Below are positions 13,592 to 36,994 of a DNA stretch of 40,679 nucleotides, in pieces. This stretch comes from Oscillospiraceae bacterium (lineage in GTDB: Bacteria > Bacillota > Clostridia > Oscillospirales > Oscillospiraceae), in NCBI GenBank assembly GCA_017549125.1, contig JAFYVL010000069.1:1-40679 (forward strand). Direction: 5' to 3'. The position numbers and the translations under genes were made by a program. Every line of letters begins with the position of its first letter. Position 1 is the first letter of the stretch. The notes beneath the pieces were generated by a model. It did no database searches, had not been told where the DNA came from, and saw nothing but the letters and a program-made list of their open reading frames with translations.

Positions 13592-16500
13592 ATGAAGAAT
13601 GCAAAGAAACTGCTTTCTGTGCTTTGGGCATTGGTCATGCTCGTAAGCATTTGTGCAATTGCAGTTACTGTGCAGGCTGCTGAGGTGGCAGAGGGATATA
13701 TGATCCTTTCTGACGATATCGAAGTAGACCTGACTTTGAACCAGGATCTTTATGTAGATTTGAATGGTTATAACCTAAGTGGTACGATCCAGACCAATGG
13801 ATTTAATGTCTATGGTATGGATAGCAGCACCAACCGGTATGCCGATGATAACATGGGTTATTTCACCTGTGTGGACGGCCAGGGTAACGCAATTGTACCC
13901 CAGAGCAATGTAAAGACTGAACTGAGCGGTGAGCCCATGCGTTATGTGACCATCGCAACCGAAAATGGTTATACCTTCCATAGAATCTATGTAGGTATCA
14001 CCAAGCAGAGCTTGGCACCCAGCGTGACCGGTGTGGGTTATAAGGCTGAGTTCTATGCAGACGAAACCGTATTGGCACAGGTTGAAGAGATTGGTTACAA
14101 CCTGTGGCTCGATGGCGGCAATACCGTCAGCCGCAATGCAGCATTCAAGAATGAACTGACCCTGCGTGTGAAGAATTTTGATGCTGCCAACTATGGCGAG
14201 GCAAACCTCAACGCATCCGTATGGATGACCATTGGCGACGAGACCATCACCAGCAGTGACTACAGCTTGACTCTGCGCAGCTTGGTGGAATTGGTCAATG
14301 CCAATGTGAGCGCCTATACCAATGAGCAACTGCAGGCTGTTCGCGATATGATCGCCGCCAACCCCATTATGGAGAACTGGCAGATCCAGAATCTGTTCAA
14401 GAATGTGGATTTGGTAACTGTCACCTTCGCTGATGTGCAGCTGGTAGAGCGTGACCTGGGTAGCATCGTCAATGGCCCTAAGGCATTGCGTGATCATCTG
14501 AACTATAGCAAGAGCATCAACGCAGATGTGCTGTTTATGGTCGGTGATATTGTCAACAACGCGACCCAGTCTTACTATGACCGTTTCTGGTCCATCTTCA
14601 AGTCCGTTTACTGTGAGGATGAGAGCCAGTGGCCCGAGTTGGTTTGGACTATGGGTAACCACGAGTGGTATGACGACAAGGAGAAGGATGCTGCCGATGC
14701 TATTGCCCTGTTCAAGGCAAATGCACACATTGAATCTGAGAACCTGGTAAAGATGAGCCAGGTGGAATCCGTGTCCAACCCCGGACAGACCGTTGCTAAC
14801 TACTATAAGGTCATCAAGGGTGTACCCTTTGTGGTCATCTCCGGTGATACCAGAGCCAATACCATCACCGAGGCACAGAAGGCCGAGCTGATCAGCTGGC
14901 TGGATGAGATCAACCAGTTGCCCTCCGTTAAGGCAGGCACTCCCATTTATGTGGCATTCCATATTCCCATTGCGGATGTGACCTACTTTGGACAGGGTGC
15001 AGGTGAAGGCTCCAGAGTGCTGGATGATATTCTGAAGCAGTATCCCAACACCATCGTCTTTACCGGCGATACCCATTGCCCCGGTATCAACGAGCGTACC
15101 ATTACCCAGATCGATTATACTGCGATCAATCTGGGCAGCTCCTCTTATTCCCGTATTGTCAACCGTAGCGCAACCTCTGAGCCCGGCGATAAATACTACA
15201 ATGTGGGCGGCGGCTCTGCCAAGGACGTTGTCAATGGCGAAGTGGCATTTGGCTTTGACTATACCCCCAACCTGATGGTTCTGGAAAACAACAGCGATGG
15301 TTCTGTGAACATGGATCGCTATTGGACCGATACCAACCTGGAAGATGTTCGCAAGGTAGGTATTACCTGGAACTTCCCCTCCGGTCTGACCAAGGATAAG
15401 TTCATCTATACCAATGACCGCTTCGAGAATACCGAGTGGGCCAATATCCTCTATGGTAAGGATGGTCTGGTCTTTGCAGAGGACGCAACCATCTCCTACA
15501 GCGTAAACGGCACAGATATGATCGTCTACTTTGACGATGTGACCGATCATAACTATGCTGAGCATTACAAGATTACTGTCACCGCAGACGGTACGACTTC
15601 CAAGGTCTATGATATCGTTGGTAACTACTATAAGTATTACGAAGAAGCCCAGATGTATCACATCCCCTTGGCAGATATCCCTGTTGGCACAAGCTACACC
15701 GTTGAGGTGAAGGCTTATGACTTCTTCGATAATGTGAGCTTGAACAGCCTGGTTGCTACTACCGAGAGCGCTACCAATCTGTTCCATAGCAAGGTAGAAG
15801 GTTCTATCAGCGGCACCTATACTGACATCTCCAGCAAGCTGAACTACCAGGTTACCGCAGGTAGTGTCGCTTCTATGGAGTATTACTACCGCGGCACATA
15901 CCTGTTCAAGTCAGGCGCTACTCTGGGTACTGTACTCACAAGTGATACGCTGTCCTTGGCAGAAGAATTTACCGTAACCGACTGGACCCACGGCATCCTG
16001 TCCGTAAAGGTCAAGAATGCAGGTGATGTACCCATCAATGTGGGCGTGACCATCGTTGTCAATGAGAACGGCAAGGAAAAGTGGTTGGCCGACTTCTCTG
16101 CTGAATACCAGCAGGTGGTAGCTGCAGATGGCCAGTGGACACAGCTCACTTGGGATCTGTACGAGCTGTTTGGCATTACCTCCCTGCAGCAGGTAAGCGC
16201 TATCCGTCTGAAGGCAAACAGCACTGCGCCCAGCGCTGACGGCTATGAGATGCATCTGTATCTGGATGATGTGGATATTCTCCAGGGTGAGCATGTGGAT
16301 GTGGAAATTCCCGATGATTCCGAGAATTCCGGCACAGTCTTTGAGGGCGGCAATTTTACAGCCAATACGGACTTTACCCTGAATCTGGCTAACGAGAACG
16401 AAGTGACCGACATTTCCTTCGATTATAAGATTACCGGCGGTGAGTATTTCCATATTGCATTCCTGCCTGATTGGAGCAACTACTTCGGCTACTTTAAGTT

Positions 16501-17461
16501 TGATGCCAATGGCATGGTGGGCAGCTATCCCGGTGTGACCACCCAGAAGCAGGCTGATGGCACTATTCATGTGGATATTGATCTGACTGCTGTAACAGCC
16601 ATCAACGGCAAACCCTCCACCGTATTGACCATTCTGTATATCCGAGGCGGCTGGTCCAACGCAAACGGCACCATTAGCAACATCTGCTTCAGTTCTGCTT
16701 CTGATGAGCCCGAGATCTCCGAGGATGTATACGAGGGCGGTCAGTTTGTGGCAAGTACGGATCTGACTATCGGCATGGATAACGATAAGGAAGTTACCCT
16801 GTTGACCTTCGACTATAAGATCACCAGCGGTGAGTATTTCAACATTGCGCTGTTGCCCGATTGGAGCAGTTATTTTGGCTACTTTGAGTTTAATGCCAAC
16901 GGTGCAGCAGGCAACTATGCCGGTATTACCACCGAGAAGCTTTCCGGTGGCACCATCCGTGTCCGCGTGAACATGGCTGAGCTGACGAAGGTGGCTGGTA
17001 CTCCCTCCAAGGTGCTGACCATGCTGTATATCCGTGGCGGCTATTCCAATGCCAATGGTACGATCAGCAATATCCGCCTGAGCCATGAAGCACAGGAAGT
17101 TCTGCGTGGCGAACTGGTAGATACCTCCGCAGGTAAGACCATTGCGCTGGGTAACACCAATGCTTTGAATACCATCAGCTTTGACTATAAGTGGGTTGAC
17201 GGCACCAAGTTCAACATGGCGCTGTGTCCCAACTGGAGCGCCTACTTTGGTTACTTTACCTTTGACGCTGAGGGCGCAAGAGACAAGGATGCCGGTGTCA
17301 CTACGGAGGTGCTGGCGGATGGCTATATCCGTGTTACCTTTGACTTGAGTGCGTTGAACACGATGAACGGTACACCTAGCAAAGTCATTGACTTCCTGTA
17401 CATCCGTGGCGATGACTGGTCTGACGCACACTGCTATATCGACAATATCACATTTGCATAA
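13592..17461 (+). CDS. Secreted metallophosphoesterase with DLNG module and three beta-sandwich repeats
   Basis: 1289 residues; the ATG has AAGGAGG 8 nt upstream. The signal peptide (1-30) ends at VQAA. Residues 34-269 are the DLNG module (DLYVDLNG, GFNVYGMDS). Residues about 272-530 are a calcineurin-like phosphoesterase: ADVQ (D281, Q283), GDIVN (D319), GNHEW (N356, H357), FHIP (H457) and GDTH (D493, H495). Compared with the usual DxH and GHxH, the first and last motifs are altered. A jelly-roll-like domain ends at LYLDDVDIL near 890, then come three ~118-residue repeats from residues 918, 1048 and 1172. Extracellular phosphate-ester hydrolysis on a glycan is inferred. It is the first gene of a run that includes a GH123-like enzyme and a GH20. 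Confidence 0.85.
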   Translation: MKNAKKLLSVLWALVMLVSICAIAVTVQAAEVAEGYMILSDDIEVDLTLNQDLYVDLNGYNLSGTIQTNGFNVYGMDSSTNRYADDNMGYFTCVDGQGNAIVPQSNVKTELSGEPMRYVTIATENGYTFHRIYVGITKQSLAPSVTGVGYKAEFYADETVLAQVEEIGYNLWLDGGNTVSRNAAFKNELTLRVKNFDAANYGEANLNASVWMTIGDETITSSDYSLTLRSLVELVNANVSAYTNEQLQAVRDMIAANPIMENWQIQNLFKNVDLVTVTFADVQLVERDLGSIVNGPKALRDHLNYSKSINADVLFMVGDIVNNATQSYYDRFWSIFKSVYCEDESQWPELVWTMGNHEWYDDKEKDAADAIALFKANAHIESENLVKMSQVESVSNPGQTVANYYKVIKGVPFVVISGDTRANTITEAQKAELISWLDEINQLPSVKAGTPIYVAFHIPIADVTYFGQGAGEGSRVLDDILKQYPNTIVFTGDTHCPGINERTITQIDYTAINLGSSSYSRIVNRSATSEPGDKYYNVGGGSAKDVVNGEVAFGFDYTPNLMVLENNSDGSVNMDRYWTDTNLEDVRKVGITWNFPSGLTKDKFIYTNDRFENTEWANILYGKDGLVFAEDATISYSVNGTDMIVYFDDVTDHNYAEHYKITVTADGTTSKVYDIVGNYYKYYEEAQMYHIPLADIPVGTSYTVEVKAYDFFDNVSLNSLVATTESATNLFHSKVEGSISGTYTDISSKLNYQVTAGSVASMEYYYRGTYLFKSGATLGTVLTSDTLSLAEEFTVTDWTHGILSVKVKNAGDVPINVGVTIVVNENGKEKWLADFSAEYQQVVAADGQWTQLTWDLYELFGITSLQQVSAIRLKANSTAPSADGYEMHLYLDDVDILQGEHVDVEIPDDSENSGTVFEGGNFTANTDFTLNLANENEVTDISFDYKITGGEYFHIAFLPDWSNYFGYFKFDANGMVGSYPGVTTQKQADGTIHVDIDLTAVTAINGKPSTVLTILYIRGGWSNANGTISNICFSSASDEPEISEDVYEGGQFVASTDLTIGMDNDKEVTLLTFDYKITSGEYFNIALLPDWSSYFGYFEFNANGAAGNYAGITTEKLSGGTIRVRVNMAELTKVAGTPSKVLTMLYIRGGYSNANGTISNIRLSHEAQEVLRGELVDTSAGKTIALGNTNALNTISFDYKWVDGTKFNMALCPNWSAYFGYFTFDAEGARDKDAGVTTEVLADGYIRVTFDLSALNTMNGTPSKVIDFLYIRGDDWSDAHCYIDNITFA
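13691..14398 (+). repeat. DLNG module, copy in the first metallophosphoesterase
   Basis: A ~236-residue unit starting near EGYMILSDD, with TLNQDLYVDLNG, GFNVYGMDS, FHRIYVGITKQSLAP, GVGYKAEFYADE and ELTLRVKNFD, and ending in a helical stretch (YTNEQLQAVRDM). It is strongly similar to 19860-20582 and 31916-32638. I do not recognise a named family. Confidence 0.8.
16343..17458 (+). repeat. Three ~118-residue beta-sandwich repeats
   Basis: Units start at 16343, 16733 and 17105. Each runs: an opening EGG or RGE, FDYKI near 25, a DWS/NWS..YFGYF block near 45, GVTT near 65, DGYIRV near 75, YIRG near 98, and a closing N-I or IDN-I strand. The closing strand and overall length suggest a carbohydrate-binding jelly roll, but I recognise no named CBM family. 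Confidence 0.85.
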
Positions 17462-17469
17462 ATTCCTAC

Positions 17470-17560
17470 TGGCAGCGGCAGAATTTTCTGCCGCTGCCGA
17501 ACCCGCCTTTAAGACCGTTCTAAAAGTCAACGATTTTCGCTGATTTTTAGAACTGCCTTG
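17470..17560 (+). terminator. Two-hairpin intergenic element, copy 1
   Basis: A first stem, GGCAGCGGCAGAA/TTCTGCCGCTGCC (17471-17498), is followed by a second long hairpin, GTTCTAAAA/TTTTAGAAC (17517-17553), with an inner TCA-CG/CG-TGA stem. Neither has a long T tract. The same pair of hairpins occurs after the next gene (21688-21782). It may cause partial termination or protect the upstream mRNA end within the operon. Confidence 0.7.
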
Positions 17561-17603
17561 TGACAGGAACAGTCAATCATTATCTTTTTTAGGAGGTGCG
17601 CTT

Positions 17604-20600
17604 ATGAAAAAGCACACCAAATACATCTTCGCGGTTTTGCTGACATTGGTGATGATTCTGGGGATGATCCCAGTGGCATCTGCCGATGAAACCGCAATTA
17701 CTACCGAGCAAGTGATCACTGGGCTTGAAATTTTCTACCCATACAATACGGAAACCATTCAGCGGACCGGTACTCCCGTGAGCCGTTTCCAGGCGCTGAC
17801 TTTTGAGAGTGCAAGAGGGGAAGTAGAATCTGCCCAGTTGATTCTCACGCCCAGCTTTGAGGTCAGCTCCTTTGAATTGACCATGAACAGCTTGAAGAAC
17901 GAGAAGGGCAATACCATTCCGTCTTGGGCCTTTGAGGTTTATACCCAGCATTACGTGACCATTACAGGTTCTTCCAATGCGCCCAACTATTCCAGCAGAC
18001 ATGATATGTATCATCCTGAGTCCGGCAAGAGCGGTTGGGATGGTGTTTATCCCGATGGTCTGATTCCCCAGGATGCAGCCATCAAGGCAGGGGAGAACAC
18101 CATCGCTGCCGGCAATAACCAGGGTATCTGGGTGAACCTGAATGTGCAAAATGCCGCTCCCGGTCAATACACCGGTTATGCAGATCTGACCATCAATGAT
18201 ATGGCCATGCAGATTCCCGTGGCCGTGCATATCTACGATGTGCAGCTGCCCGAACAGGTACATACCAAATCCTCCGTGGGCATTTGGTGGGATCAGTTGC
18301 AGGCAGGCGAGGGCTATATTGATGGTCAGCTGGCAGATGCCTATTTTGATTATCTGGTCAGCAAGCGCATTATGCCCATGGATGCATGGGGTGTCACCAA
18401 TTCTGCGGAAAGCTTAACCGGTGCCATTGTCAATGAGTTTGCGGTGTCTCCTAAGATCGCCAACTACTCCATTGGTGTTGCCCGAGATGCAGAGGGCTAT
18501 GTAAACCCCGAGGGTTTGAAGGTTACCTTGACCACCTTGATCAACAATAATATTGAACAGATCAAGGCCGGCAACCATATCAATTTCTTTGAGAAGGCAT
18601 ATTTTAGCTGGATCATCGACGAACCCAGAAATGATACCACCTATGCCAAAGCCAATGTGATCACCTCCCAGTTGGATGCGGTGAAGGCAGAACTTGCACC
18701 TCTCCTGGCGGAATATCCCGACCTGCAGGAAAGCTTCATGAATCTGAAGCATTTGGTCACTGCACCTAATCCTACGGATAAGACCTATGTGGTAAAAAAT
18801 AACTTTTTTGGCACCAGTTACTTTGTTAATAACAATTATGGCAACACGGCATTGACCGGCGATAGTTATATTTATGCGCCCCAGTATCAGTGGCTGCACA
18901 CCGAGAAACAGCGCGCCATGTATGCAGGTGAGCAGGAGGTTTGGTGGTATGGTTGTTTGCACCCGGTATCTCCGTACCCCACCTGGCATATCAACGCACC
19001 CTTGGTTGCCGCCCGTCTGGAAGGCTGGATGCGCTATGACTACGGTATCGACGGTTTTGTATTTGCCTGTGCAAATATGTGGGGCGAATACACGGAAGAT
19101 CTGACAGAGATTGTTCAGCATGATTACTGGGATGCCTATACCAAGGTGTTTGCACCCGGTGACCAGATTCTGGTGCTGCCCGGTTCAGAATATGGCGTTT
19201 ACGGCCCCATCGGTACGATCCGTATTGAGAATATCCGTGAAGCCAATGAGGATTATGAATATCTGTGGATGCTCCAGAATGAATACGGCATCAACGATAT
19301 TTCTGCTTATACCGCAAATCTCTACGAAGGGACGATCTCTACTACAGATGTGTCCCTGTATTACAACAGCCGCAAGAATTTGCTGACCCAGCTGGAAAGC
19401 TTAAGCATTGCCAAAAATGGCAAGACGCAGATCAATCCCGGCGAGGAAGGGTTTGTTCGTGGCACAGCTTTGACCCCTACGGTCAATCAGACCATTTCCG
19501 TGGGCGCAACAGAGCCTATGGATCTGCTGGCGTTTGACTATAAGGTAACCAACAACGAAAAATTCGATGTGGCAATCATGCCGGATTGGTTTAGCTACTA
19601 CGGTTACTATTCCTTCAATACCAATGGTGCTGTGTCCAACTATACCGGTGTGAAGGTTCTGCGTCTGGACGACGGCTACTATCGTGTGATCTTCGATATG
19701 GATGCCTTGACCGCCATGAACGGTGAGCCTACCACCCAAATTGATTTCCTGTTCCTGCGAGGCAATACCTCCCAGGCCACAGGCTATATCGACAATGTGC
19801 GTATGGCAATGCATGGAGACACGGAGTTGGATGCACCCTTCACAGAGCCTACAGAGCCGGAGGGCTATGTGGTTCTGTCGGAAAATGCCAAGGTCAATTG
19901 GTTGCTAAATCAAGATTTGTATGTGGATCTGAATGGCTTCACCTTGACCGGTACGATTCAAACCAATGGCTTTAAGGTCTATGGCATGGATTCTGCCACC
20001 AACCGATATACCTGTGAAAACATGGGCTATTTTGCCTGTGTCAATGATCAGAATCAAGCCGTCGTACCCGAAAGCGAAGTCAAGACCGATCTGAGCGGTG
20101 AGGTTATGCGCTACCTGACCCTGGAGACCAACGAGGGCTTTACCTTCCATCGTATCTATGTGGGCATTACCAAGCAGAGTCTTGCGCCTAGTGTGACCGG
20201 TGTTGGCTATAAGGCGGAATTCTATGCCGATGAAATGGTGCGCTCCCAGGTGGAATCCATTGGCTATGACCTGTGGCTGGAAGGCGGCCATGTGGTCAGC
20301 CGCAGTACTGAGTTCCAGAACCAGCTGACCCTGCGAGTCAAAAACTTTGATACCCGGAATCATGGCCAGACGAACCTGTATGCAACGGTTTGGATGAATG
20401 TGAACGGCAAACGGATTGCCAGCTCCCAGTGCAGCGTGAACCTGCGGCAGATGGTGGAATCCATAGATGCCAATGTGGTTGCTTATTCTTTGGAACAGCT
20501 GCAGATCGTGCAGGATATGATCCAGGCCAATAGCACCATGCAATCCTGGCAGGTGGATCGTATCCGCAAAGCGCTGATTATTCGCGGTGAAGCCTTTGCT

Positions 20601-21680
20601 TCCGGTGTGGATAAAAACATTCTGCTGAATAATAAGGGAATTCTGGATACCATCACCTTTGAGTACAAAGTGACCAATGGTGGTACGATCAATCTGGCAT
20701 TTATGCAGGATTGGTTTAACTTCTACAGTTACTATGCTTTTGATGCATTCGGCGCAGTAGATAACTATGCCGGTATCACCACCCAAGAACTGGATGATGG
20801 TTATATTCGTGTGACCGTACAGCTTTCCCAGTTGAACCAGGTGTCCGGTAGCCCTGAGCGTATGATCGATTTCCTGTATATCCGTGGTGATTGGTCGGAC
20901 GCCGATGGCTACATCGACAATGTTAGCTATACGGTGTACAAGCCCACCGAGATCTTTGAGGGTGGCAGCATTGTGGCAGGCAAGGATTTGACCATTCATA
21001 TGGGGAATGCCCAGGCGGTAACCAGAATGTCCTTTGACTATTCTATTACGAGTGGTTCTTTCCACATTGCATTGCTGCCGGATTGGTCTAATTACTTTGG
21101 CTACTTTAAGTTCGATGCCAATGGTGAGGTAGGGGATTATCCCGGTGTTCTGGCACAAAAAATCAATGATACCACCTGGCGGGTATATTTTGATATGACC
21201 CAGGTTACAACCATTGCGGGCGCACCCTCCCCGGTCATTACCATGTTGTATGTTCGCGGCGATTGGACATCTGCCAATGGTTCGATCAGCAATATTTGTA
21301 TCAATGATGCGGCAGCCGTTCCCCCTCGAGGTGAGTCTTTTGCAGCTTCGGTAAATAAGACCATTGACCTGTCTGCTACGGGTAATGTAAGCACCATCCG
21401 TTTTGATTATAAGATCACAGAAGGTACAGCCATCAATGTGGCGCTTTGTCCGAACTGGAGCAGCTACTACGGCTATTTTGCATTTACCGCAACAGGTTGC
21501 ACGACTGCCTACAATGGTGTGACCACTGAGGTTTTAGAGGACGGTTATATCCGTGTTACGATCCACATCGATGCATTGACCGATAAGGTTGGTACACCCT
21601 CTAAGGCCATTGATTTTCTGTATATCCGTGGGGATTGGTCCGATGCCAGCGGCTATATAGATAATGTCATATTTGCGTAA
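17604..21680 (+). CDS. Secreted GH123-like glycosidase with four repeats and a DLNG module
   Basis: 1358 residues; the ATG follows AGGAGGT. The signal peptide (1-27) ends at ASA. Residues about 33-610 form a GH123/DUF4091-type region: an N-terminal beta-sandwich (FESARGEVESAQLIL) and a barrel with VGIWWDQLQAGEGY, the acidic pair in IIDEPRND (D339, E340), WWYGCLHP, and YGPIGTIRIENIREANEDYEY. In known GH123 enzymes an adjacent Asp-Glu pair drives substrate-assisted cleavage of beta-GalNAc. Repeat units start at residues 619, 994, 1119 and 1242, and a DLNG module fills 753-993. It probably releases HexNAc at the cell surface; no anchor is visible. Its closest relative in the window is the 3030-residue protein. 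Confidence 0.87.
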   Translation: MKKHTKYIFAVLLTLVMILGMIPVASADETAITTEQVITGLEIFYPYNTETIQRTGTPVSRFQALTFESARGEVESAQLILTPSFEVSSFELTMNSLKNEKGNTIPSWAFEVYTQHYVTITGSSNAPNYSSRHDMYHPESGKSGWDGVYPDGLIPQDAAIKAGENTIAAGNNQGIWVNLNVQNAAPGQYTGYADLTINDMAMQIPVAVHIYDVQLPEQVHTKSSVGIWWDQLQAGEGYIDGQLADAYFDYLVSKRIMPMDAWGVTNSAESLTGAIVNEFAVSPKIANYSIGVARDAEGYVNPEGLKVTLTTLINNNIEQIKAGNHINFFEKAYFSWIIDEPRNDTTYAKANVITSQLDAVKAELAPLLAEYPDLQESFMNLKHLVTAPNPTDKTYVVKNNFFGTSYFVNNNYGNTALTGDSYIYAPQYQWLHTEKQRAMYAGEQEVWWYGCLHPVSPYPTWHINAPLVAARLEGWMRYDYGIDGFVFACANMWGEYTEDLTEIVQHDYWDAYTKVFAPGDQILVLPGSEYGVYGPIGTIRIENIREANEDYEYLWMLQNEYGINDISAYTANLYEGTISTTDVSLYYNSRKNLLTQLESLSIAKNGKTQINPGEEGFVRGTALTPTVNQTISVGATEPMDLLAFDYKVTNNEKFDVAIMPDWFSYYGYYSFNTNGAVSNYTGVKVLRLDDGYYRVIFDMDALTAMNGEPTTQIDFLFLRGNTSQATGYIDNVRMAMHGDTELDAPFTEPTEPEGYVVLSENAKVNWLLNQDLYVDLNGFTLTGTIQTNGFKVYGMDSATNRYTCENMGYFACVNDQNQAVVPESEVKTDLSGEVMRYLTLETNEGFTFHRIYVGITKQSLAPSVTGVGYKAEFYADEMVRSQVESIGYDLWLEGGHVVSRSTEFQNQLTLRVKNFDTRNHGQTNLYATVWMNVNGKRIASSQCSVNLRQMVESIDANVVAYSLEQLQIVQDMIQANSTMQSWQVDRIRKALIIRGEAFASGVDKNILLNNKGILDTITFEYKVTNGGTINLAFMQDWFNFYSYYAFDAFGAVDNYAGITTQELDDGYIRVTVQLSQLNQVSGSPERMIDFLYIRGDWSDADGYIDNVSYTVYKPTEIFEGGSIVAGKDLTIHMGNAQAVTRMSFDYSITSGSFHIALLPDWSNYFGYFKFDANGEVGDYPGVLAQKINDTTWRVYFDMTQVTTIAGAPSPVITMLYVRGDWTSANGSISNICINDAAAVPPRGESFAASVNKTIDLSATGNVSTIRFDYKITEGTAINVALCPNWSSYYGYFAFTATGCTTAYNGVTTEVLEDGYIRVTIHIDALTDKVGTPSKAIDFLYIRGDWSDASGYIDNVIFA
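19458..21677 (+). repeat. Four ~118-residue beta-sandwich repeats, interrupted by a DLNG module
   Basis: Units start at 19458, 20583, 20958 and 21327. The first is separated from the rest by the DLNG module (19860-20582). The third unit (EGGSIVAG opening, GSISNICIN end) pairs with the EGG-type units of the proteins at 13592 and 27902; the others are of the RGE type ending in GYIDN. So at least two subtypes alternate. Confidence 0.85.
19860..20582 (+). repeat. DLNG module, copy in the GH123-like protein
   Basis: Residues 753-993: NQDLYVDLNG, TNGFKVYGMDS, FHRIYVGITKQSLAP, GVGYKAEFYADE, QLTLRVKNFD and a helical end (YSLEQLQIVQDM). It sits between the first and second repeat, not at the N-terminus as in the protein at 13592. 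Confidence 0.8.
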
Positions 21681-21687
21681 ATAGGGA

Positions 21688-21782
21688 TTGGCAGCGGCAG
21701 AGAAATCTGTCGCTGCCAAGAAGCCCCTTAAGACCGTGCTAAAAATCAATGAAATTCGTTGGTTTTTAGAACTGCCTTATGG
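21688..21782 (+). terminator. Two-hairpin intergenic element, copy 2
   Basis: TTGGCAGCGGCAGA/TCTGTCGCTGCCAA (21688-21719), then a second hairpin at about 21735-21772 (CTAAAAA..TTTTTAG). It is clearly the same element as 17470-17560: AAGACCGT, the CTAAAA stem and TTTTTAGAACTGCCTT are shared. It lies between the GH123-like gene and the GH20 gene. Confidence 0.7.
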
Positions 21783-21822
21783 TATTTAAAAAGAATTCCC
21801 CATGGAAATGAGGTAAGAAATA

Positions 21823-23682: not shown

Positions 23683-23693
23683 AGGAGGCGTTT

Positions 23694-27747: not shown

Positions 27748-27841
27748 CTATTTTGCTGTTACAAATGCGCAGTTGATGAAATTTTTGGGAAAAAGAGCGC
27801 GTTTGTGGAAGTTTGATAGAGCAAACCGCTAAAATATATTT

Positions 27842-27877
27842 TTGTATCATGTGATCAATTCCAGATAATATATCTGG
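27842..27877 (+). promoter_or_regulatory. Promoter and overlapping palindrome before the giant gene
   Basis: TTGTAT (27842-27847), 16-bp spacer, GATAAT (27864-27869). The perfect palindrome CCAGATA-ATA-TATCTGG (27861-27877) covers the -10. This could be a repressor site or a start-proximal RNA hairpin. The ribosome-binding site AAGGAGG lies at 27887-27893. Confidence 0.55.
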
Positions 27878-27901
27878 GGTGAAAATAAGGAGGAAAACAA
27901 T

Positions 27902-30900
27902 ATGCAAAAGAACCTATGCAAAGTTTTGTCTTGTTTCTTGGCAATTATTATGGTTTTGGGCATGATCCCCACCACCGTTTTTGCGAATGAAGCACAGGCA
28001 GCAAGCAATTCTGACTTGCCCACCGTCATGGAGGGTCTTAGTATTGCGTACCCCTACAATACAGAAATGGTTCAGCAGACAGGCAATGTCCCTGACCGTT
28101 TCGACGCACTTACCTTCGAAAGCGCAAGAAACGAAACAGAGTCTGCGCAGTTGATCCTGACTCCCAATTTTGATGTGACCTCTTTCGAGCTGACCATGAA
28201 TGGTCTGCAAAACGAAAAGGGCAACATCATTCCCGGTTGGGCATTTGAGGTCTATACCCAGCACTATGTGTCCATCAGTGGCGCAGGCAATGCTCCCTAC
28301 TGGACAAAGGACAGCTGGCTTAGCGGCACTTATATGTTCAAGCCTCGTGGTGGTAAGACCGCTGCCAGCGGTGTTTACCCCGATGCCCTGATCCCTATGG
28401 ATGCCGCGATCGCTGCCGGTGAGAACAAGATTTCCGCAGGCAAGAACGGTGGTCTGTGGGTCAACCTGAATGTACAGGACGCAGCCCCCGGTACTTACAC
28501 GGGCTTTGCAACCCTGACCGTCAATGGTACTGCTATGCAGATTCCTGTATCTGTCCGCATTTATGATGTGGCAGTGCCGGAAGAAGTCCATATGGAGTCC
28601 TGCTTCCCCATTTGGTGGGATCAGCTGCAGGCAGGCGAGGGCTATATTGACAGAAACCTGGCAGATGCTTATTTTGACTACATTGTCAGCAAGCGTCTGA
28701 GCCCCATGGATGCCTGGAATATTTCCAGATGGGATGACTCTCTGGCAGATTACGCAGCCAGCTACCTGGCAGTATCTCCTGAAATTTCTTCCTATAATAT
28801 TCCTTTTACCAGAAATTCTGATGGCACCGTGGATACCGCAGCCATGAAGGCTACGCTGACCGCTCTGATCAATAAGAACCTGGAACTGGCAGCAGCTGGC
28901 AGCAATGTGGATCTGTTCAAGAAGGCATATTACTATCTGTACGACGAACCCGAAACCAACGCAGAATATAAGGCAGCCAACGAAATGACTGCCCAGATGG
29001 ATGCAGTTAAGAATGAGCTGGCTCCTATGCTGGATGCATATCCTGAGCTGAAGGCAAGCTTCCTGGGCATTAAGAATCTGGTAACAGCCCAGCATCCCAA
29101 CGATTCTACTTACGACAAGATGTGGCAGGATGTTGGTAATACTGTGCTGACCGGCAGTGCATTCTACTGCCCTCAGTATCAGTACCTGAACACCGAAGCC
29201 CAGCGTGCTCTGTATGCCAATGAGGAGAAGCTGTGGTGGTATGGCTGCTGCTTCCCCACAGAACCCTTTGCTACCTATCAGATCAACAGCCCCCTGATTG
29301 CCTCCCGTGCAAATGGCTGGATGATGTATGATTATGGCATTGATGGCATGTTGTACTCCAGCGTCAACTACTGGGGCACATACAACAATGACGGCTCCAT
29401 TACCCAGCTGAGCTATTGGACTGGTTACAACAATAACGGTACTCCCGGTGACGGTATGCTGGTCTATCCCGGTTCTGCCTATGGTGTCTATGGTCCCATT
29501 GGTACTGTCCGCTTGGAGAACATCCGTGAGTCCAACGAAGAGTATGAGTACCTGTGGCTGCTGGAAAATGCATTCGGCATTTCTGATATTTCTACCTATA
29601 CCAAGGGCCTGTATGAAGGCGTGATCGTGACCGGCGTTTACGACGGTCAGACCATCGACCCCGATGGCGACGGCAACACCGATGCTGTGAGCATCTATTA
29701 TAACAGCCGTAAGGCATTGCTTGCCAAGCTGGAGCAGCTGAATGTTGCCGCCAACGGCGCAACTGAGATTCAGCCCGGCCAGGAAGGCTTCGTCCGTGGC
29801 GAGGCATTTACTGCCGGTGTGAACTTCCAGAAGGATCTGGATCAGACCAAGACCGCTGCCGGTTTGAGCCTGGAGTACAAGATCACCGATGGCGAGAAGA
29901 TTGGCGTTGCTCTGCTGTCTGACTGGTCTAACTTCTATGGTTACTATAATCTGTATGCCGATGGCATCAAGAATGAGTATGAGGGCGTGTATGTTCAGCA
30001 GCTGGACGACGGCTATGTCCGTGTGATCTTTGATCTGTCTAAGTTGAATGTTACCAACGGCGCTCCCACTCCTAACATTGATCTGCTCTTTGTCCGTGGC
30101 GCAAATACCTCTGCCAGCGGTTATTTCGACAAGATCCAGCTGCTGGATGAGATCCCCGAGATCGAGACTCCCGTAACCTATCGCGGTGAGGAAATCGTGG
30201 TTGGTCAGAAGCAGTCTATTTACTTCCCGGAAGCAGCTGCTTATGATGTGGTTACCTTCGATATGATCGTACCTGCCGCAGGCGGCGAAAATGAGATCGG
30301 CTTCTGCCTGTATCAGGATGGTAGTAACTATTTGGGTTACTTCTATCTGGAAAAGACCGGTCTGGAAAATAACTATTCCGGTGTTTCTGCAGAGCAGTTG
30401 GATGACGGCTACTGGCGTGTAACTCTGGATGTGGATCAGATCACCGATTCTGCAAGAGTTCACGGCGCTCCCGAGATCTTCGACAGAATTTATATCCGCA
30501 ATCATACCACCGGTGGCTACATTGATAATGTGCAGTGCATCATCGAAGAGCCTGTACAGCCCGAAGCACCCAAGCAGGAGTTTGAAGGCGGCGAGTTTGT
30601 TGCCGGCAGCGGTATTACCGTTAGCATGGATAATGCCCAGGCAGTTACCAAGCTGAGCTTCGATTACAAGCTGACCTCTGAAGGCCACATGAACGTGGCT
30701 CTGCTGCCCGACTGGTCCAGCTACTATGGCTACTTTAAACTGGATGCCAATGGCGAATGTGGCGATTATAAGGGCGTGACCACCCAGAAGATCGAAAACG
30801 GCTATATCCGTGTCTATATCGATCTGGCTGATGTGAACTACATTGCCGGCACTCCTTCTGATGTGATCACCATGATCTATGTCCGTGGCAACTACACCAC

Positions 30901-33900
30901 CGCCAACGGCGAGATCACCAATATCCGTCTGAATGAGAGCGCATATACACCTTATCGTGGCAAGGCATTGACCCCCGGTGTGAACCAGCAGATCGATCTG
31001 GATGCAACCGAGGAAATTGCGACCCTCAGCTTTGACTATAAGATCGTCGGCAGCGGCCATATGCAGATTGCATTGTTGCCCAACTGGAGTGCTTATTTCG
31101 GCTATTTCAAGCTGGATGCCAATGGTGAAGTGGGCGACTATGTGGGTGTGACCACAGAAAAACTGGAAGACGGTTATATCCGCGTTGCTATGAATCTGAA
31201 TGATGTGACTGCTATGGCAGGCACTCCCTCCACTATCATTGACTTCCTGTACATCCGTGGCGATTGGACTACCGCCAATGGCTACATTGACAATGTGCAG
31301 TATACTTTAAAGAAGGACATGCCTCGCGGTCAGTTCTTCGAGGCTGGCAAGCAGACCCAGATCATGATCAATGCCACCGAGGAAGTCAGCCAGATCTCCT
31401 TTGATTACAAGCTGATCGAGGGCAAAAAGTTTGATCTGGCATTGCTGCCTGATTGGAGCAGCTACTTCGGTTACTTCGGCTTTATGGCTGAAGGCACTGA
31501 GGGTATCTATAACGGTGTGACCACCGAGACTCTGGAAGACAGCTATATTCATGTTACCATCGATCTGGATCAGCTGACTCAGATGGCAGGCACTCCCTCC
31601 AAGGTAATCTCTTTCCTGTACCTGCGTACGGATTGGGGCAATGGTGCAGGCTATATTGACAATGTGCAGTATACCGTCAATACCCATACCCATAATCACA
31701 ATGCAGTTGTGACCGCACCTACCTGCACCGCAGGCGGCTACACCACTTACACCTGTGATTGTGGCGATACCTATACTGGCGATGCTACCGAGGCTTTGGG
31801 CCATAACTATGAATCTGTTGTGACCGCACCCACCATGTCCGCTCAGGGCTACACCACCCATACCTGCGCAAATTGTGGTGACAGCTATGTGGACAGCTAT
31901 ACAGACTTTGTGCTGGAAGGCTACCTGGTTCTGACCGAGAATATGGAAGTGAACCTGACCTTGAACCAGGATCTGTATGTGGATCTGAACGGTCACACCA
32001 TGTCCGGTGTCCTCAATACCAATGGCTTCAAGGTCTACGGTATGGATGCTGCTACCAACAATTATACCTGTGAGACTTTGGGTTACTTCTCCTGCGTGGA
32101 TGCCCAGGGCAACGCAATCGTTCCCGAGAGCGATGTTAAGACCGATCTGAGCGGTAGCGTCATGCGTTATGTGACCATCGCAACTGAGAGTGGTTATACC
32201 TTCCACCGTTTCTATGTAGGCATTACCAAGCAGAGCCTGGCACCCCAGGTAACCGGTGTTGGCTATAAGGCTGAGTTCTATGCGGATGAGATGGTTCAGG
32301 CGCAGGTAGGCGGCATTGGCTATAACCTGTGGCTGGAAGGCGGTAAGGCTATCAGCCGTGACCATGCATTCCAGAATTATCTGACCCTGCGTGTTAAGAA
32401 TTTTGATGCTGTCAACTATGGCGAAACCAATCTGTACGCAAACGTATGGATGACCATTGGTGATGTGACCATTAACAGCAGCGAGTATAGTCTGACTCTG
32501 CGTCAGATGGTTGAGGCTGTGAATGCTGACGTGAGCGCATACTCCGAAGAGCAGCTGCAGGCTGCTCGGGATATGATCGAGCGCAATCCTGTCATGCAGA
32601 ATTGGCAAGTTGAGAATCTGTACCAGAAGGAAGTCGTCCGTGGTCAGGAAATTGCTCCTTCCACAGATCTGACCCTGCCTCTGAACTGCTCTGAGGAATT
32701 GGAGTCCGTAAGCTTCGATTATAAGGTTACCAGTGGTAGCTTTAACATCGCCCTGCTCCCCGATTGGAGCAACTACTTCGGTTATTTTGCATTTGATGCC
32801 GCGGGTATGGTTGACAACTACGACGGCGTAACCGTGGAAACCCTGGATGACGGCTATATCCGTGCTACCTTCGACCTGTCTGCTTTGACCAAGTACACCG
32901 GTACACCCGGTGCGGTACTGGATTGTCTGTACGTCCGCGGCGATTGGAGCGATGCAACCGGCTACATTGACAATGTTCAGTTTGTTGTGGCCGAGGTTCC
33001 CGAGACACCTGAGGTCAATCGTGGCGAAAAGATTGAACCCGGCGTAAATATGACACCTTTGTCCAATACCACTGCAGAACTGGAATCTGTAAGTTTTGAG
33101 TATAAGGTTATCAGTGGCCGCTTCAATATTGCCCTGATGTCCGATTGGCAAAACTTCTACGGCTACTTTGCATTTAACGCAGAAGGTAATGTGGATTCCT
33201 ACGATGGCGTGACTGTTGAACCTCTGGAGGATGGCTATATCCGTGTTACCTTCGATATGGCTGCCCTGACCAAGTACACCAACACCCCCACTGCAGTACT
33301 GGAATTCCTGTATATCCGTGGCGACTGGAGTGATGCCACCGGCTATATTGACAACATCCAGTTTGTGGCAAAGGATCAGCCTGAAACCAGCTACCGTGGT
33401 CAGAAGATCACAGTGGGAGAATCCTTGTCCATTATGGCAGACCAGCCTGACAACTACAGCCAGGTCGTTATGGACATCATCGTTCCTGCTGTAGGTGGCG
33501 AGAATGAGATCGGCATTGCTTTGTTGGATGCGGATTGGGAATACTACGGTTATTTCTATCTGGAAAATACCGGTCTGGAGAGCAACTATGCCGGTGTCAG
33601 CGCAGAGCAGCTGGAGGACGGCTACTGGCGTGTGACAATTGACATTGCCAATATTACCGATAGCTCCAGAATCCATGGCGATGTGGGTGATATTGAGCGT
33701 GTTTATATCAATAACCACACCACCGATGGCTATATTGACAATGTAGAATTTATTAAAGAAGAGATTTCTGTTGATATTGAAGCCCGTGGTCGCAAGATCA
33801 CTTCCGGCGAGGGTCTGACCTGGGATATGGGTGCAGGCACTTTCTCCACCGTGACTATGGAATATGCCATCACCAACGGTGGCACATTCTCCCTGGCGGT

Positions 33901-36900
33901 TTGTGGCAGCTGGAGCGACTTCTACGGCTACTATAGCTTTGATGCAAACGGTACTGTGGGCAGCTATGCCGGTATCAGCACCGAGAAGCTGGAAGATGGT
34001 TATGTCCGTGTGACCTTTGATGTGGCTGCGCTGAATGTTACCGCCGGCGCACCCACTCGTGATCTGAAGTTCCTGTATATTTCCGGCAGCAAGAATACAG
34101 CAAACGGCTATATCGACAAGGTTTCCGTAGTGGATTACCGGGAAGAGGTGATCCGTGGTGAAGCCTTCACCTCTGGTACGAACTGGAGCATGTTCGTAGA
34201 CGAAACTACCTACGGTGCAGTGACCTTCGATTATAAGATCACCGATGATGGCAAGATCGCAGTTGCACTGCTGGATACCGCATTTTCTAAGTACTACGGC
34301 TATTTCGAGTTCGATAAGAACGGTGCTACCAGAACCTATAACGGTGTGACCACCACAAAGCGTTCTGACGGCTATATCTATGTTACCTTTGATGTAGACG
34401 CTCTGACTAACATCAGTAGCAGCGGTGAGCCTGAGGCTCTGGGTGCGATCCGTATCCGTGGCAGCGCAAGCACCGCTAACGGCTATATCGACAGTGTACA
34501 GTTTAAGGAAAGTCTGAATCCCACCGGTGTTCGCTTTGGTGTGCTCAGCGACGTGCACCTGGGCAACGACGACACCTACTGGGCATCCAATCATTTGAAG
34601 AATGCTCTGACCATCTATAAGAACCGTGGTGTCGATGCGATTGTCATGACCGGTGACCTGCAGAACCACTACAAAGATCCCTATACTGTAGAAGATTGCA
34701 AGGCTTGGATTGAGAATCTGGCCGATGTATGGTTTGAGGTATTCCCCGATGGTATCAACGATCTGACCGGTGAGCCTGTAGAGCCTATTTTGATCTACGG
34801 CAACCACGATCAGCTGCTGGTGGCCGAGGAATATTGGCCTGAGCGCTTCGGTGAGTATACCGATGCCTATCTGAAGGAAGTCAACGGCTACTACTTCGTT
34901 GGTGCTATGTACCAGCGTGAGAGTGCTGCAGCTACTCTGGTGGACTATGCCGAGGAAAACAGCAATGGCTATCCCTTCTTCTATATGCAGCATTGCCCCA
35001 TGATCGACATCCTCTATGGTGAAGATCTGGATGCAACCGACTTTGAAACCGGTATGACCATGCGTGATGACCTGTGGAATGTTTCCAATGCCATTACCTT
35101 CTCCGGTCACACCCATTTGCCCGCTACCGACGAGCGTAGCATCTATCAGCCTTCCGACGCTGATGATGCACAGTTTACCGCAATTCAAGTGCCTTCTTTG
35201 AACTATGCAAGATTGTCTGATCTGGGCTATGATGTTCCCGGTGATGCATCTGCTTCCAAGCAGGGTCTGTATGTGGTAGTAGAAGGCTCTGAAGTGAATG
35301 TCAGCCGCTTGAGCTTTGCTGACAGCAACTATCCCGAAGGCGAGTCCATCGGTGCTGATTGGGTCTTTGACGCAGCAGATCCCGAGGATAAGCCCTATGG
35401 TTATGAGACCCGCGCCAATGCAACCAATAAGCCCGAGTTTGCAGCCGATGCCAAGATCGAGGTTCTGTCCAACAGCGGCGACTCCGTGGCATTCCAGTTC
35501 CCGGCCGCTACTGTGACTGCGCCTGAGGGCTTTAGCGATCAGATCCAGTCCTACTACATTGAAACTGTCAATGTGGCAACCGGTGAGACCGTGAACACTC
35601 AGTCCTTCGTGACCAATTACTTTATGGATGCCAAGGAAGCAAACTTTGCCGGTCCTTACAACATAACTGTAAACGGCCTGGCAGAGGAGACCACCTATGA
35701 GATTCGTGTGTATGCCAAGGAATACTACCAGGTATCCAGCGAACCTCTGACCCTGCAGATCATCACGACGAAGAGCGTTGTTCGTGGTACTGCCTTGGTA
35801 GCAGGCGAGAGCCTTCAGATTGCAACCAACACCACAGAAAAGCTGGCTGCTATCAGCTTCGACTATAAGATCGTGTCCGGTGAACGGTTCAATGTGGCTC
35901 TCATTACCCACGATTGGAGCAACTACTTCGGCTACATTCCTTGCTACGCTTCCGGTTATCGGGGTAGTGATCCCGGTGTCAGCTACGAGATTCTGGCAGA
36001 CGGTTATGTTCGTGTGACTCTGGATCTGGACAAGCTGACGACCTGCGCTGGCGAACCTTCCAATGTGGTGGAGCTTCTCTATATCCGTGGCAGCTGGAGC
36101 GATGCCAACGGCTATATCGATAACATCCAGTATGTTGTCGCAGAGGACGAACCCGAAGTTCCCACCGAGCCCGAGCCCACCGAGCCCGAACCTACCGAGC
36201 CCGAAGTGACCGAGCCCACCGAGCCTGAGGTGACCGAACCTGTGATCCGTGGCAAGGCATTTGATGCCGGCGCTAACAGCTATCTGTACACAGATTGTAC
36301 CGATAATATGACCCAGTTTAGCTTCGAGTACAAAGTCACCAATGATGGTGCGATGGATGTATTGATCGGTAACGATAACGGCCAGTATGGCAACTTCTAT
36401 CTGAATGCCAACGGCACAGTTATCAGCCTGTCTGACACCACTGCCAAGAACTATGCCGGTGTGACTACCGAGGTTCTGGCTGATGGCTACATTCGTGTGA
36501 CCTTCCAGCTGGATGAACTGACCACTGTATACAGAGGTACTCCCGGTTCTGTGATCAGCTATATCCGCATTCGTGCTACCACTACCGCATCCGGTTATGT
36601 GGACAATGTTCAGTGGGATGCAGCTCAGACCGATGTGATCCGCGGTGAAGCTTTCACCGCCGGCAGCAGTAAGCGCATTGCCTTTACCGAGGGCGTTTAC
36701 AGCACCGTTACCTTCGACTACAAGATCACCGAGGGTACAGAGATGCAGTTTGCTGTTCTGCAGGATTCCGCAGGCTCTGCCTACTATGGCCGATTCACCC
36801 TCATTGCTACCGGTGAGAAGACAGACTATGCCGGCGTTGAGGTACAGGCTCTGTCCGATGGCTATTATCGTGTGACCATTAACATTGCTGAGGTTACCGT

Positions 36901-36994
36901 GGCGAACGGCACACCTTCTGTGCTGTCCACCTTCTATATCCGTGGTAGCGGTACCAATGCCAGCGGCTACATTGACAATCTGCAGGTAGCCTGA
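27902..36994 (+). CDS. 3030-residue secreted protein: GH123-like domain, 13 repeats, DLNG module, metallophosphoesterase
   Basis: The ATG follows AAGGAGG by 8 nt; the signal peptide (1-35) ends at FANEAQA. Residues about 40-620 are GH123/DUF4091-like, with the acidic pair in LYDEPET (D348, E349), WWYGCCFP and YGPIGTVRLENIRE. Then come five ~118-residue repeats (632-1259), a Cys/His-rich double motif (1260-1335: TCTAGGYTTYTCDCG, GYTTHTCANCG), a DLNG module (1339-1578) and five more repeats. A complete calcineurin-like phosphoesterase follows (about 2205-2500: SDVH, GDLQN, GNHD, QHCP, GHTH), then a fibronectin-III-like segment, one repeat, a (PTEPE)n linker (about 2750-2780) and two last repeats. 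No LPXTG, S-layer or lipid anchor is visible. It likely trims a HexNAc-containing, phosphate-bearing glycan outside the cell. Confidence 0.87.
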   Translation: MQKNLCKVLSCFLAIIMVLGMIPTTVFANEAQAASNSDLPTVMEGLSIAYPYNTEMVQQTGNVPDRFDALTFESARNETESAQLILTPNFDVTSFELTMNGLQNEKGNIIPGWAFEVYTQHYVSISGAGNAPYWTKDSWLSGTYMFKPRGGKTAASGVYPDALIPMDAAIAAGENKISAGKNGGLWVNLNVQDAAPGTYTGFATLTVNGTAMQIPVSVRIYDVAVPEEVHMESCFPIWWDQLQAGEGYIDRNLADAYFDYIVSKRLSPMDAWNISRWDDSLADYAASYLAVSPEISSYNIPFTRNSDGTVDTAAMKATLTALINKNLELAAAGSNVDLFKKAYYYLYDEPETNAEYKAANEMTAQMDAVKNELAPMLDAYPELKASFLGIKNLVTAQHPNDSTYDKMWQDVGNTVLTGSAFYCPQYQYLNTEAQRALYANEEKLWWYGCCFPTEPFATYQINSPLIASRANGWMMYDYGIDGMLYSSVNYWGTYNNDGSITQLSYWTGYNNNGTPGDGMLVYPGSAYGVYGPIGTVRLENIRESNEEYEYLWLLENAFGISDISTYTKGLYEGVIVTGVYDGQTIDPDGDGNTDAVSIYYNSRKALLAKLEQLNVAANGATEIQPGQEGFVRGEAFTAGVNFQKDLDQTKTAAGLSLEYKITDGEKIGVALLSDWSNFYGYYNLYADGIKNEYEGVYVQQLDDGYVRVIFDLSKLNVTNGAPTPNIDLLFVRGANTSASGYFDKIQLLDEIPEIETPVTYRGEEIVVGQKQSIYFPEAAAYDVVTFDMIVPAAGGENEIGFCLYQDGSNYLGYFYLEKTGLENNYSGVSAEQLDDGYWRVTLDVDQITDSARVHGAPEIFDRIYIRNHTTGGYIDNVQCIIEEPVQPEAPKQEFEGGEFVAGSGITVSMDNAQAVTKLSFDYKLTSEGHMNVALLPDWSSYYGYFKLDANGECGDYKGVTTQKIENGYIRVYIDLADVNYIAGTPSDVITMIYVRGNYTTANGEITNIRLNESAYTPYRGKALTPGVNQQIDLDATEEIATLSFDYKIVGSGHMQIALLPNWSAYFGYFKLDANGEVGDYVGVTTEKLEDGYIRVAMNLNDVTAMAGTPSTIIDFLYIRGDWTTANGYIDNVQYTLKKDMPRGQFFEAGKQTQIMINATEEVSQISFDYKLIEGKKFDLALLPDWSSYFGYFGFMAEGTEGIYNGVTTETLEDSYIHVTIDLDQLTQMAGTPSKVISFLYLRTDWGNGAGYIDNVQYTVNTHTHNHNAVVTAPTCTAGGYTTYTCDCGDTYTGDATEALGHNYESVVTAPTMSAQGYTTHTCANCGDSYVDSYTDFVLEGYLVLTENMEVNLTLNQDLYVDLNGHTMSGVLNTNGFKVYGMDAATNNYTCETLGYFSCVDAQGNAIVPESDVKTDLSGSVMRYVTIATESGYTFHRFYVGITKQSLAPQVTGVGYKAEFYADEMVQAQVGGIGYNLWLEGGKAISRDHAFQNYLTLRVKNFDAVNYGETNLYANVWMTIGDVTINSSEYSLTLRQMVEAVNADVSAYSEEQLQAARDMIERNPVMQNWQVENLYQKEVVRGQEIAPSTDLTLPLNCSEELESVSFDYKVTSGSFNIALLPDWSNYFGYFAFDAAGMVDNYDGVTVETLDDGYIRATFDLSALTKYTGTPGAVLDCLYVRGDWSDATGYIDNVQFVVAEVPETPEVNRGEKIEPGVNMTPLSNTTAELESVSFEYKVISGRFNIALMSDWQNFYGYFAFNAEGNVDSYDGVTVEPLEDGYIRVTFDMAALTKYTNTPTAVLEFLYIRGDWSDATGYIDNIQFVAKDQPETSYRGQKITVGESLSIMADQPDNYSQVVMDIIVPAVGGENEIGIALLDADWEYYGYFYLENTGLESNYAGVSAEQLEDGYWRVTIDIANITDSSRIHGDVGDIERVYINNHTTDGYIDNVEFIKEEISVDIEARGRKITSGEGLTWDMGAGTFSTVTMEYAITNGGTFSLAVCGSWSDFYGYYSFDANGTVGSYAGISTEKLEDGYVRVTFDVAALNVTAGAPTRDLKFLYISGSKNTANGYIDKVSVVDYREEVIRGEAFTSGTNWSMFVDETTYGAVTFDYKITDDGKIAVALLDTAFSKYYGYFEFDKNGATRTYNGVTTTKRSDGYIYVTFDVDALTNISSSGEPEALGAIRIRGSASTANGYIDSVQFKESLNPTGVRFGVLSDVHLGNDDTYWASNHLKNALTIYKNRGVDAIVMTGDLQNHYKDPYTVEDCKAWIENLADVWFEVFPDGINDLTGEPVEPILIYGNHDQLLVAEEYWPERFGEYTDAYLKEVNGYYFVGAMYQRESAAATLVDYAEENSNGYPFFYMQHCPMIDILYGEDLDATDFETGMTMRDDLWNVSNAITFSGHTHLPATDERSIYQPSDADDAQFTAIQVPSLNYARLSDLGYDVPGDASASKQGLYVVVEGSEVNVSRLSFADSNYPEGESIGADWVFDAADPEDKPYGYETRANATNKPEFAADAKIEVLSNSGDSVAFQFPAATVTAPEGFSDQIQSYYIETVNVATGETVNTQSFVTNYFMDAKEANFAGPYNITVNGLAEETTYEIRVYAKEYYQVSSEPLTLQIITTKSVVRGTALVAGESLQIATNTTEKLAAISFDYKIVSGERFNVALITHDWSNYFGYIPCYASGYRGSDPGVSYEILADGYVRVTLDLDKLTTCAGEPSNVVELLYIRGSWSDANGYIDNIQYVVAEDEPEVPTEPEPTEPEPTEPEVTEPTEPEVTEPVIRGKAFDAGANSYLYTDCTDNMTQFSFEYKVTNDGAMDVLIGNDNGQYGNFYLNANGTVISLSDTTAKNYAGVTTEVLADGYIRVTFQLDELTTVYRGTPGSVISYIRIRATTTASGYVDNVQWDAAQTDVIRGEAFTAGSSKRIAFTEGVYSTVTFDYKITEGTEMQFAVLQDSAGSAYYGRFTLIATGEKTDYAGVEVQALSDGYYRVTINIAEVTVANGTPSVLSTFYIRGSGTNASGYIDNLQVA
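29795..36991 (+). repeat. Thirteen ~118-residue beta-sandwich repeats
   Basis: Units start at 29795, 30182, 30584, 30956, 31325, 32639, 33020, 33395, 33785, 34154, 35783, 36248 and 36641. Consensus blocks: RGE opening, FDYKI, DWS..YFGYF, GVTTE.L.DGYIRVT, YIRG and GYIDN-V. Units 2 and 8 form their own subtype (IVPA-GGENEIG, GVSAEQL-DGYWRVT, NNHTT or NHTTG end). Unit 3 is of the EGG type. Units 6 and 7 are close copies of each other. Confidence 0.88.
31916..32638 (+). repeat. DLNG module, copy in the 3030-residue protein
   Basis: Residues 1339-1578: NQDLYVDLNG, NGFKVYGMDA, FHRFYVGITKQSLAP, GVGYKAEFYADE, YLTLRVKNFD, and a helical end YSEEQLQAARDM. It is preceded by the Cys/His-rich double motif and followed by repeats 6-10. 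Confidence 0.8.

Follow-up and report, generated by a model that had tools for sequence, protein, structure and literature searches.

We identified a compact module of about 117 residues as the repeated element of three putatively secreted proteins (P0001, P0002 and P0003) encoded on contig JAFYVL010000069.1 of an Oscillospiraceae bacterium (assembly GCA_017549125.1). The window, that is, the whole stretch of DNA that was analyzed, comprises 40,679 nucleotides and contains 20 copies of the module: three in P0001, four in P0002 and 13 in P0003. The module is real and strongly expanded in this genome and most likely works like a carbohydrate-binding module (CBM). We read it as a lineage-restricted, carbohydrate-binding-like beta module that is presented in multivalent arrays on secreted enzymes and lipoprotein-like proteins, and we give this reading a probability of roughly 0.55. 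The case for glycan binding is made by the enzyme partners, the glycan-utilization neighborhoods, the conserved aromatic residues and a weak profile similarity to jelly-roll-like repeats. Secretion, a beta-sandwich fold, a sugar ligand and an avidity mechanism are inferred.

A single module copy used as a plain query, without iteration, retrieved 3, 4 and 13 copies from the three proteins and had no match in 300 shuffled proteins. An iterated profile returned the identical 20 window copies, each spanning model positions 1-116. This agrees with the repeat count given in a first-pass annotation of the DNA for the proteins starting at 13592, 17604 and 27902, as do the enzyme domains that it named: GH123 in the latter two and a calcineurin-like phosphoesterase in the first and the last, all scoring above the Pfam cut-offs. 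Its list of motifs said to be shared by every copy is a fair consensus but does not hold literally throughout, as the copies at 30182 and 33395 lack FDYKI and DWS, and four window copies combine an EGG opening with a GTISN, GSISN or GEITN closing. All 20 copies, which are 116-124 residues long, were aligned (alignment A2). Averaged propensities favor strands over most of the unit and give no helix exceeding 4 residues, and the closing strand with its YIDN-like end presumably resembles that of beta-sandwich CBMs. Four aromatic positions are conserved among 118 copies, one of them from another genome (G720): W45 in 89%, Y28 in 97%, Y75 in 87% and W106 in 71%. A tandem-repeat finder run on P0003 detected just a proline-rich linker and did not pick up the module.

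Among Pfam, NCBIfam and PDB sequences we found no family that accounts convincingly for the module, and the earlier statement that it has no named family therefore holds across these searches. When all 20 window copies were scanned against Pfam, the best match had an E-value of 0.0014 (19.5 bits versus a cut-off of 24); 12 families matched weakly, one of them carbohydrate-related (Bac_A_amyl_C, E 0.093), and no Pfam CBM model was among the matches. Whole P0003 gave a sub-threshold match to Pfam KOW6 (E 9.4e-5, 22.3 bits versus 27) covering 18 residues within one module copy. Among 47 diverse module copies, the best NCBIfam match reached E 0.0006 in a single copy, and E 0.011 was the lowest value obtained with PHROG; cut-offs in these scans were given for the first member only. 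A profile search of PDB sequences found nothing better than E 0.025; the cyclodextrin glycosyltransferase leads among these (E 0.025 and 0.1) span part of the profile only. The phage head spike fibre domain NF048003 shares weak matches with six of the 47 copies (E<1, best E 0.0015), and the copy shown scores 18.7 bits versus an NCBIfam cut-off of 36, which does not make it a member. Against an alignment of 23 of the 30 loci of fetched NF048003 matches (A10), the module profile obtained an hhalign probability of 0.7 over seven aligned columns, with a score matched by 3 of 100 shuffles, and this lead was rejected. Taken together, these sequence comparisons do not place the module in any known CBM family. 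In titles and abstracts of the literature we found nothing describing the module, and the papers that match four short module motifs as text are, by title and abstract, unrelated.

The expansion extends over the whole genome. The assembly that contains the window (2.29 Mb in 93 contigs, 71.5% complete, 0.6% contamination) yielded 120 module matches at E<=0.001, including a few partial ones. Stretches fetched from this assembly hold 117 full copies in 23 open reading frames (ORFs) of 230 to 3134 residues, with one to 13 copies per ORF; together they amount to 13,913 residues, about 1.8% of the assembly. Mean pairwise identity among the copies is ~37% (the G720 copy included). The copies are spread over many contigs, and because the arrays often lie near contig ends the true copy number is probably above 120; five of the 23 module ORFs are themselves cut by a contig end, four of them at the C-end. 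Nineteen ORFs have a closed C-end, and in 13 of these a module copy forms the final domain, no more than seven residues before the stop. The nearest other copy lies in a different ORF for 80 of the 117 copies and in the same ORF for 37 (18 of these adjacent), versus 5.9 expected from shuffled labels, a pattern indicating that copies have moved between genes and have also been duplicated in place. The ratio of nonsynonymous to synonymous substitution rates (dN/dS) was below 1 in all 173 copy pairs with dS 0.02-1, out of 6786 pairs, with a median of 0.56. The smallest module ORF (L050:6677-7366, 230 residues) carries one C-terminal copy; its N-terminus looks SipW-dependent, and NCBIfam gave no support for this. 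A short ORF (L042:244-684) that resembles an IS200/IS605-type transposase shares its contig with two giant module ORFs.

The proteins that carry the module are mostly recognizable as enzymes or as lipoprotein-like. Pfam matches at E<=1e-4 were tabulated for all 23 module ORFs: seven match Metallophos, six GH123_cat and five GDSL (the classes overlap), and one matches the surface glycan-binding model SGBP_B_XBD (E 1.9e-5). The module is thus attached to carbohydrate-active catalytic domains in the six ORFs that match GH123_cat. P0002 and P0003 score 38.9 and 46.9 bits with this model versus a cut-off of 23.1 and align with the catalytic DE motif, which assigns both to GH123; the motif is kept in all 12 aligned GH123-like sequences (7 fused, 5 stand-alone). 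Consecutive DE residues are described in PMC11087588 as the catalytic stabilizer and acid/base of beta-N-acetylgalactosaminidases. Five mutually related module ORFs are lipoprotein-like and carry two domains each in their N-terminal part that belong to another repeat type (A6, see below). The N-termini of these five read as a lipobox-like signal; none of the five has a PDB match, and the two that were scanned singly have no enzyme match. Sorting the module ORFs into GH123, GDSL, phosphoesterase and lipoprotein-like classes left four of the 23 without a class (19 assigned). No cohesin or dockerin appears in the Pfam table, which covers the module ORFs only, and neither does a known surface anchor (SLH, LPXTG or wall-binding repeats), four of the 23 ORFs being cut at the C-end. 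The other matches in this table (for example TFA2_Winged_2 in three ORFs, DUF5640 in two and about seven singletons) were presumed to be chance or unrelated.

Ten neighboring ORFs that we selected at other module loci suggest glycan utilization. Nine match Pfam, namely two stand-alone GH123 enzymes, a GH20C, an L-rhamnose isomerase, an FGGY kinase, an alpha-L-rhamnosidase, an N-acetylglucosamine (GlcNAc) 2-epimerase, a permease and a GFO/IDH/MocA oxidoreductase; one has no match. The L-rhamnose isomerase and FGGY kinase genes (L043:1116-3736) lie in one locus with GH123, GH20C and a lipoprotein-like module ORF, which suggests a glycan holding both rhamnose and N-acetylhexosamine.

The module is near-private to one species in what was searched. 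Module profiles were run against family, phylum, genus and order genome sets, which overlap: one of 300 family genomes and one of 398 phylum genomes were positive (the own genome in both cases), as were two of 136 genus genomes, the own one and G720, which has one clear copy at a contig edge. Among 295 order genomes the own one and G1030 matched, and the G1030 match (E 0.0035, 38 positions, one stop) was treated as chance. None of the 40 genus genomes that are >=90% complete and <=5% contaminated contains the module. Because repeats break assemblies, a draft in which the module is missing counts for less than a near-complete genome. Pattern scans of a collection of 84,980 species genomes, with one copy and an 8-copy alignment as queries, and of viral contigs, plasmids and phages gave no confirmed match; such scans can miss distant relatives, and they may omit the window's own genome. 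E. coli genomes had no match either. Weak matches in G765 (L053) and G737 (L056) had entered an over-iterated profile and were dropped, L053 lacking the module motifs and L056 looking cohesin-like; the profile was then rebuilt from the own-genome ORFs and the G720 copy. The contig itself seems to belong to this genus, and a misbinned contig is an unlikely source of this distribution, since a lyase encoded in the window is 87% identical to a gene of the same-genus genome G725 (82% complete), where a related LysR gene is adjacent, and since another genus member, G720, carries a copy. G725 itself had no module match at E<=0.001.

Related enzymes in the genus carry other repeats. Genome G721, from another species of the genus, encodes a GH123 region at 51% identity inside an ORF of 2636 residues, as well as an ORF of 2675 residues that begins, by eye, like a phosphoesterase. 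A profile search of G721 found no 117-residue module, and none was seen in these two ORFs, which bear instead the repeats A6 (142-160 residues) and A7 (129-163 residues), with closing strands YIDN and YVDG. A6-type repeats occur in two of the 136 genus genomes, the own one and G721. The module profile (A3) scored 28.6 against A6, versus a maximum of 22.1 in 100 column-shuffles and 13.3 for the reversed profile; it scored 25.9 against the enlarged set EXT (shuffle maximum 24.1) and 20.6 against A7 (shuffle maximum 19.9). The control comparison with the 245-residue companion module (A4) gave 12.5, a score reached by 55 of 100 shuffles and thus chance. A6 and A7 resemble each other (hhalign probability 82.7), and A7 also resembles A10 (76.5), whose sequences match an NCBIfam family that is jelly-roll-like. 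Searches of PDB with A6 and A7 gave as their best leads, both below threshold, entry 2c26 of an endoglucanase (E 0.023) and entry 1wky of a mannanase (E 0.024). The module and the G721 repeats are thus alike in sitting on related enzymes, in the layout of repeated accessory domains and in their C-terminal halves (none of the 100 shuffles reached the A6 score), whereas the G721 repeats are longer and have a different N-terminal half. These comparisons weakly suggest that the module shares a jelly-roll ancestry with the A6 and A7 repeats.

How might such arrays work? Each unit would bind its target weakly, and arrays of one to 13 copies would add up to high avidity. In this way the arrays could hold secreted GH123-like beta-hexosaminidase domains, metallophosphoesterases and GDSL esterases, and likewise lipoprotein-like binding proteins, at one shared glycan-rich target. 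The module is placed after, around or at the end of the catalytic part, as in a carbohydrate-binding array, which would keep the enzyme at its substrate. It may have arisen in or near the own lineage from jelly-roll repeats like those on the related enzyme of G721. Candidates for such a common target are a substrate matrix that the carriers share, the surface of the producing cell and the module itself. Sorting of module copies by enzyme class was not detectable: a copy and its nearest counterpart on another contig were of the same class in 30 of 99 cases versus 22.2 expected, and 311 of 2000 permutations reached this number. One shared target is therefore likelier than enzyme-specific ligands. 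The multivalent glycan binding proposed by the first-pass annotation is plausible on this sequence evidence.

Several observations weigh against carbohydrate binding. The absence of class sorting is also what a shared anchor or a spacer would give, the conserved aromatics may be structural, and no CBM model appears in the Pfam table of the 23 module ORFs. What dN/dS provides is soft evidence, because dS near 1 approaches saturation. The link to jelly-roll repeats has its own weak points: hhalign assigned the module a probability of 40 with A6 (23 with EXT) from a local match of the C-terminal half only, and a forced full-length alignment of the module with A6 left W45 unpaired with a matching tryptophan. 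A6 in turn matched A10 weakly (2.9), and comparisons of the module with the whole of A9, which contains A6-type domains (0.6), and with the accessory domain A8 of P0001 (0.3) were as unsupported as that with A10.

Choline-binding, GW and SLH modules are known to attach proteins to the cell envelope, and the arrays might similarly tie secreted proteins to a wall polymer, capsule or surface layer of the producer. Unrelated enzymes drawing on one module pool without class sorting, the frequent C-terminal position, and the lack of a known surface anchor in the Pfam table, so that anchoring may be needed, would all fit. However, the five of 23 module ORFs with a lipobox-like start would already be anchored, and these lipoprotein-like carriers argue against pure anchoring. 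Moreover, 13 of the 29 own-genome ORFs in which we found the 245-residue module lack the 117-residue one, and the lack of a match in the close relative G725, although this genome is only 82% complete, and in 134 of 136 genus genomes would be unusual for an envelope anchor; we consider attachment unlikely. Alternatively, the module could be a rigid bead, repeated as a spacer or stalk that sets the distance between catalytic domain and cell or substrate and binds no ligand. Arrays in which a variable number of copies follow one another head to tail, mostly with short linkers between them, and the same module beside different enzymes without sorting by class, are what a stalk would produce, but terminal positions and the single copy in the small ORF L050 are odd for one and argue against a pure spacer. 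The strongly conserved aromatics, if exposed, would suit binding, while dN/dS below 1 fits and is not decisive. On balance a ligand-free spacer seems rather improbable to us.

A further possibility is that units on different proteins associate with one another and so bring enzymes and binding lipoproteins together in a single surface complex, which would do the job of cohesin and dockerin with a single module type. In favor of this stand the presence of the same module on catalytic ORFs and on lipoprotein-like ORFs with N-terminal A6-type domains (two of these five showing no enzyme match), the lack of cohesins and dockerins in the Pfam table, and a pool shared across ORFs, as seen in the nearest copies. 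The jelly-roll-like repeats of G721, however, point to ligand binding, and we judge self-association very unlikely.

The architecture of the three proteins and of their neighbors is given in the table below. The signal-peptide-like starts were recognized by eye.

Features of the window (all on the forward strand), with profile or Pfam support where available
Feature	Coordinates	Strand	Support or remark
P0001: signal-peptide-like start, 245-residue module, calcineurin-like phosphoesterase, ~170-residue accessory domain, 3 C-terminal module copies	13592..17461	+	
P0002: signal-peptide-like start, GH123-like enzyme, module copy 1, 245-residue module, module copies 2-4	17604..21680	+	
P0003: signal-peptide-like start, GH123-like enzyme, 13 module copies, 245-residue module, calcineurin-like phosphoesterase	27902..36994	+	
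GH123-like region of P0002	17604..19457	+	DE motif; PF13320 8.6e-10, PF22680 1.6e-07
GH123-like region of P0003	27902..29794	+	DE motif; PF13320 3.3e-12
Calcineurin-like phosphoesterase domain of P0001	14477..15082	+	PF00149 1.3e-09
Calcineurin-like phosphoesterase domain of P0003	34532..35128	+	PF00149 9.1e-07
245-residue companion module in P0001	13688..14413	+	profile A4
245-residue companion module in P0002	19857..20573	+	profile A4
245-residue companion module in P0003	31913..32638	+	profile A4
~170-residue accessory domain of P0001 (A8)	15794..16309	+	ends LYLDDVDI; also in two other own-genome ORFs
P0001 module copy 1	16343..16693	+	
P0001 module copy 2	16733..17083	+	
P0001 module copy 3	17105..17458	+	runs up to stop codon
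P0002 module copy 1	19458..19808	+	
P0002 module copy 2	20583..20933	+	
P0002 module copy 3	20958..21305	+	
P0002 module copy 4	21327..21677	+	runs up to stop codon
P0003 module copy 1	29795..30145	+	
P0003 module copy 2	30182..30541	+	divergent (no FDYKI, DWS)
P0003 module copy 3	30584..30934	+	
P0003 module copy 4	30956..31306	+	top match to window profile
P0003 module copy 5	31325..31675	+	
P0003 module copy 6	32639..32986	+	
P0003 module copy 7	33020..33367	+	
P0003 module copy 8	33395..33754	+	divergent
P0003 module copy 9	33785..34132	+	
P0003 module copy 10	34154..34507	+	
P0003 module copy 11	35783..36136	+	
P0003 module copy 12	36248..36619	+	carries insertion
P0003 module copy 13	36641..36991	+	runs up to stop codon
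GH20 (subtype C) hexosaminidase-like enzyme	21823..23682	+	PF18088 3.1e-49, PF00728 1.9e-11
Stand-alone GH123-like enzyme, without module	37004..38869	+	DE motif; PF13320 2.2e-14
Extracellular solute-binding protein	38869..40554	+	PF01547 9.5e-11

The window also encodes two AraC regulators and a GFO/IDH/MocA oxidoreductase. The 245-residue companion module (A4) is a second unnamed module, common to P0001, P0002 and P0003; 27 matches are listed in the own genome, which is also the only one of 101 family genomes with a match, and a divergent copy lies in an alkaline-phosphatase protein at 2040-6392. Between module copy 5 and the 245-residue module, P0003 has two cysteine-containing GYTTxTC repeats (~31680-31900), and stretches resembling them occur in other ORFs of the genome. 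No similarity between the ~170-residue accessory domain and the 117-residue module was detectable. Other giant ORFs of the own genome, L104 (C26) and L101 (C38:28001-43000), combine the 245-residue module with different internal repeats, as seen by eye; the genome may have undergone several repeat expansions.

Among known systems, the arrays are most readily compared with those of beta-sandwich CBMs (CBM32, CBM20 and CBM4/9-type), in which a small module with conserved aromatics is also repeated beside catalytic domains. Unlike these, the module has ~120 copies in one genome, occurs almost nowhere else among the genomes searched and matches no Pfam CBM model. Avidity through arrays of several CBMs is described in PMC13003330. 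Another paper reports the mucinolysome of Limousia, a cellulosome-like surface system of gut bacteria that combines multiple enzymes acting on host glycans with non-catalytic modules present as repeats (PMC12997984). In contrast to the mucinolysome, one module type is here fused directly to enzymes and to lipoprotein-like ORFs, with no cohesin or dockerin in their Pfam table. The near-private module might even mark glycan-degrading enzymes and lipoprotein-like proteins as a common glue, through a shared ligand or self-association, in a surface system whose members have neither cohesins nor dockerins nor sortase signals, a prospect that we regard as doubtful.

What is surprising in this system is the copy number, the near-privacy and the presence of differing modules on related enzymes, while its function is what we infer. 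If the carbohydrate-binding reading is true, the module would represent a binding-module family absent from the searched libraries, with many variants in one genome, and would be useful for mapping specificity and avidity. Additionally, related enzymes in species of one genus bear different accessory modules, so that the origin and spread of new modules can be put to a direct test.

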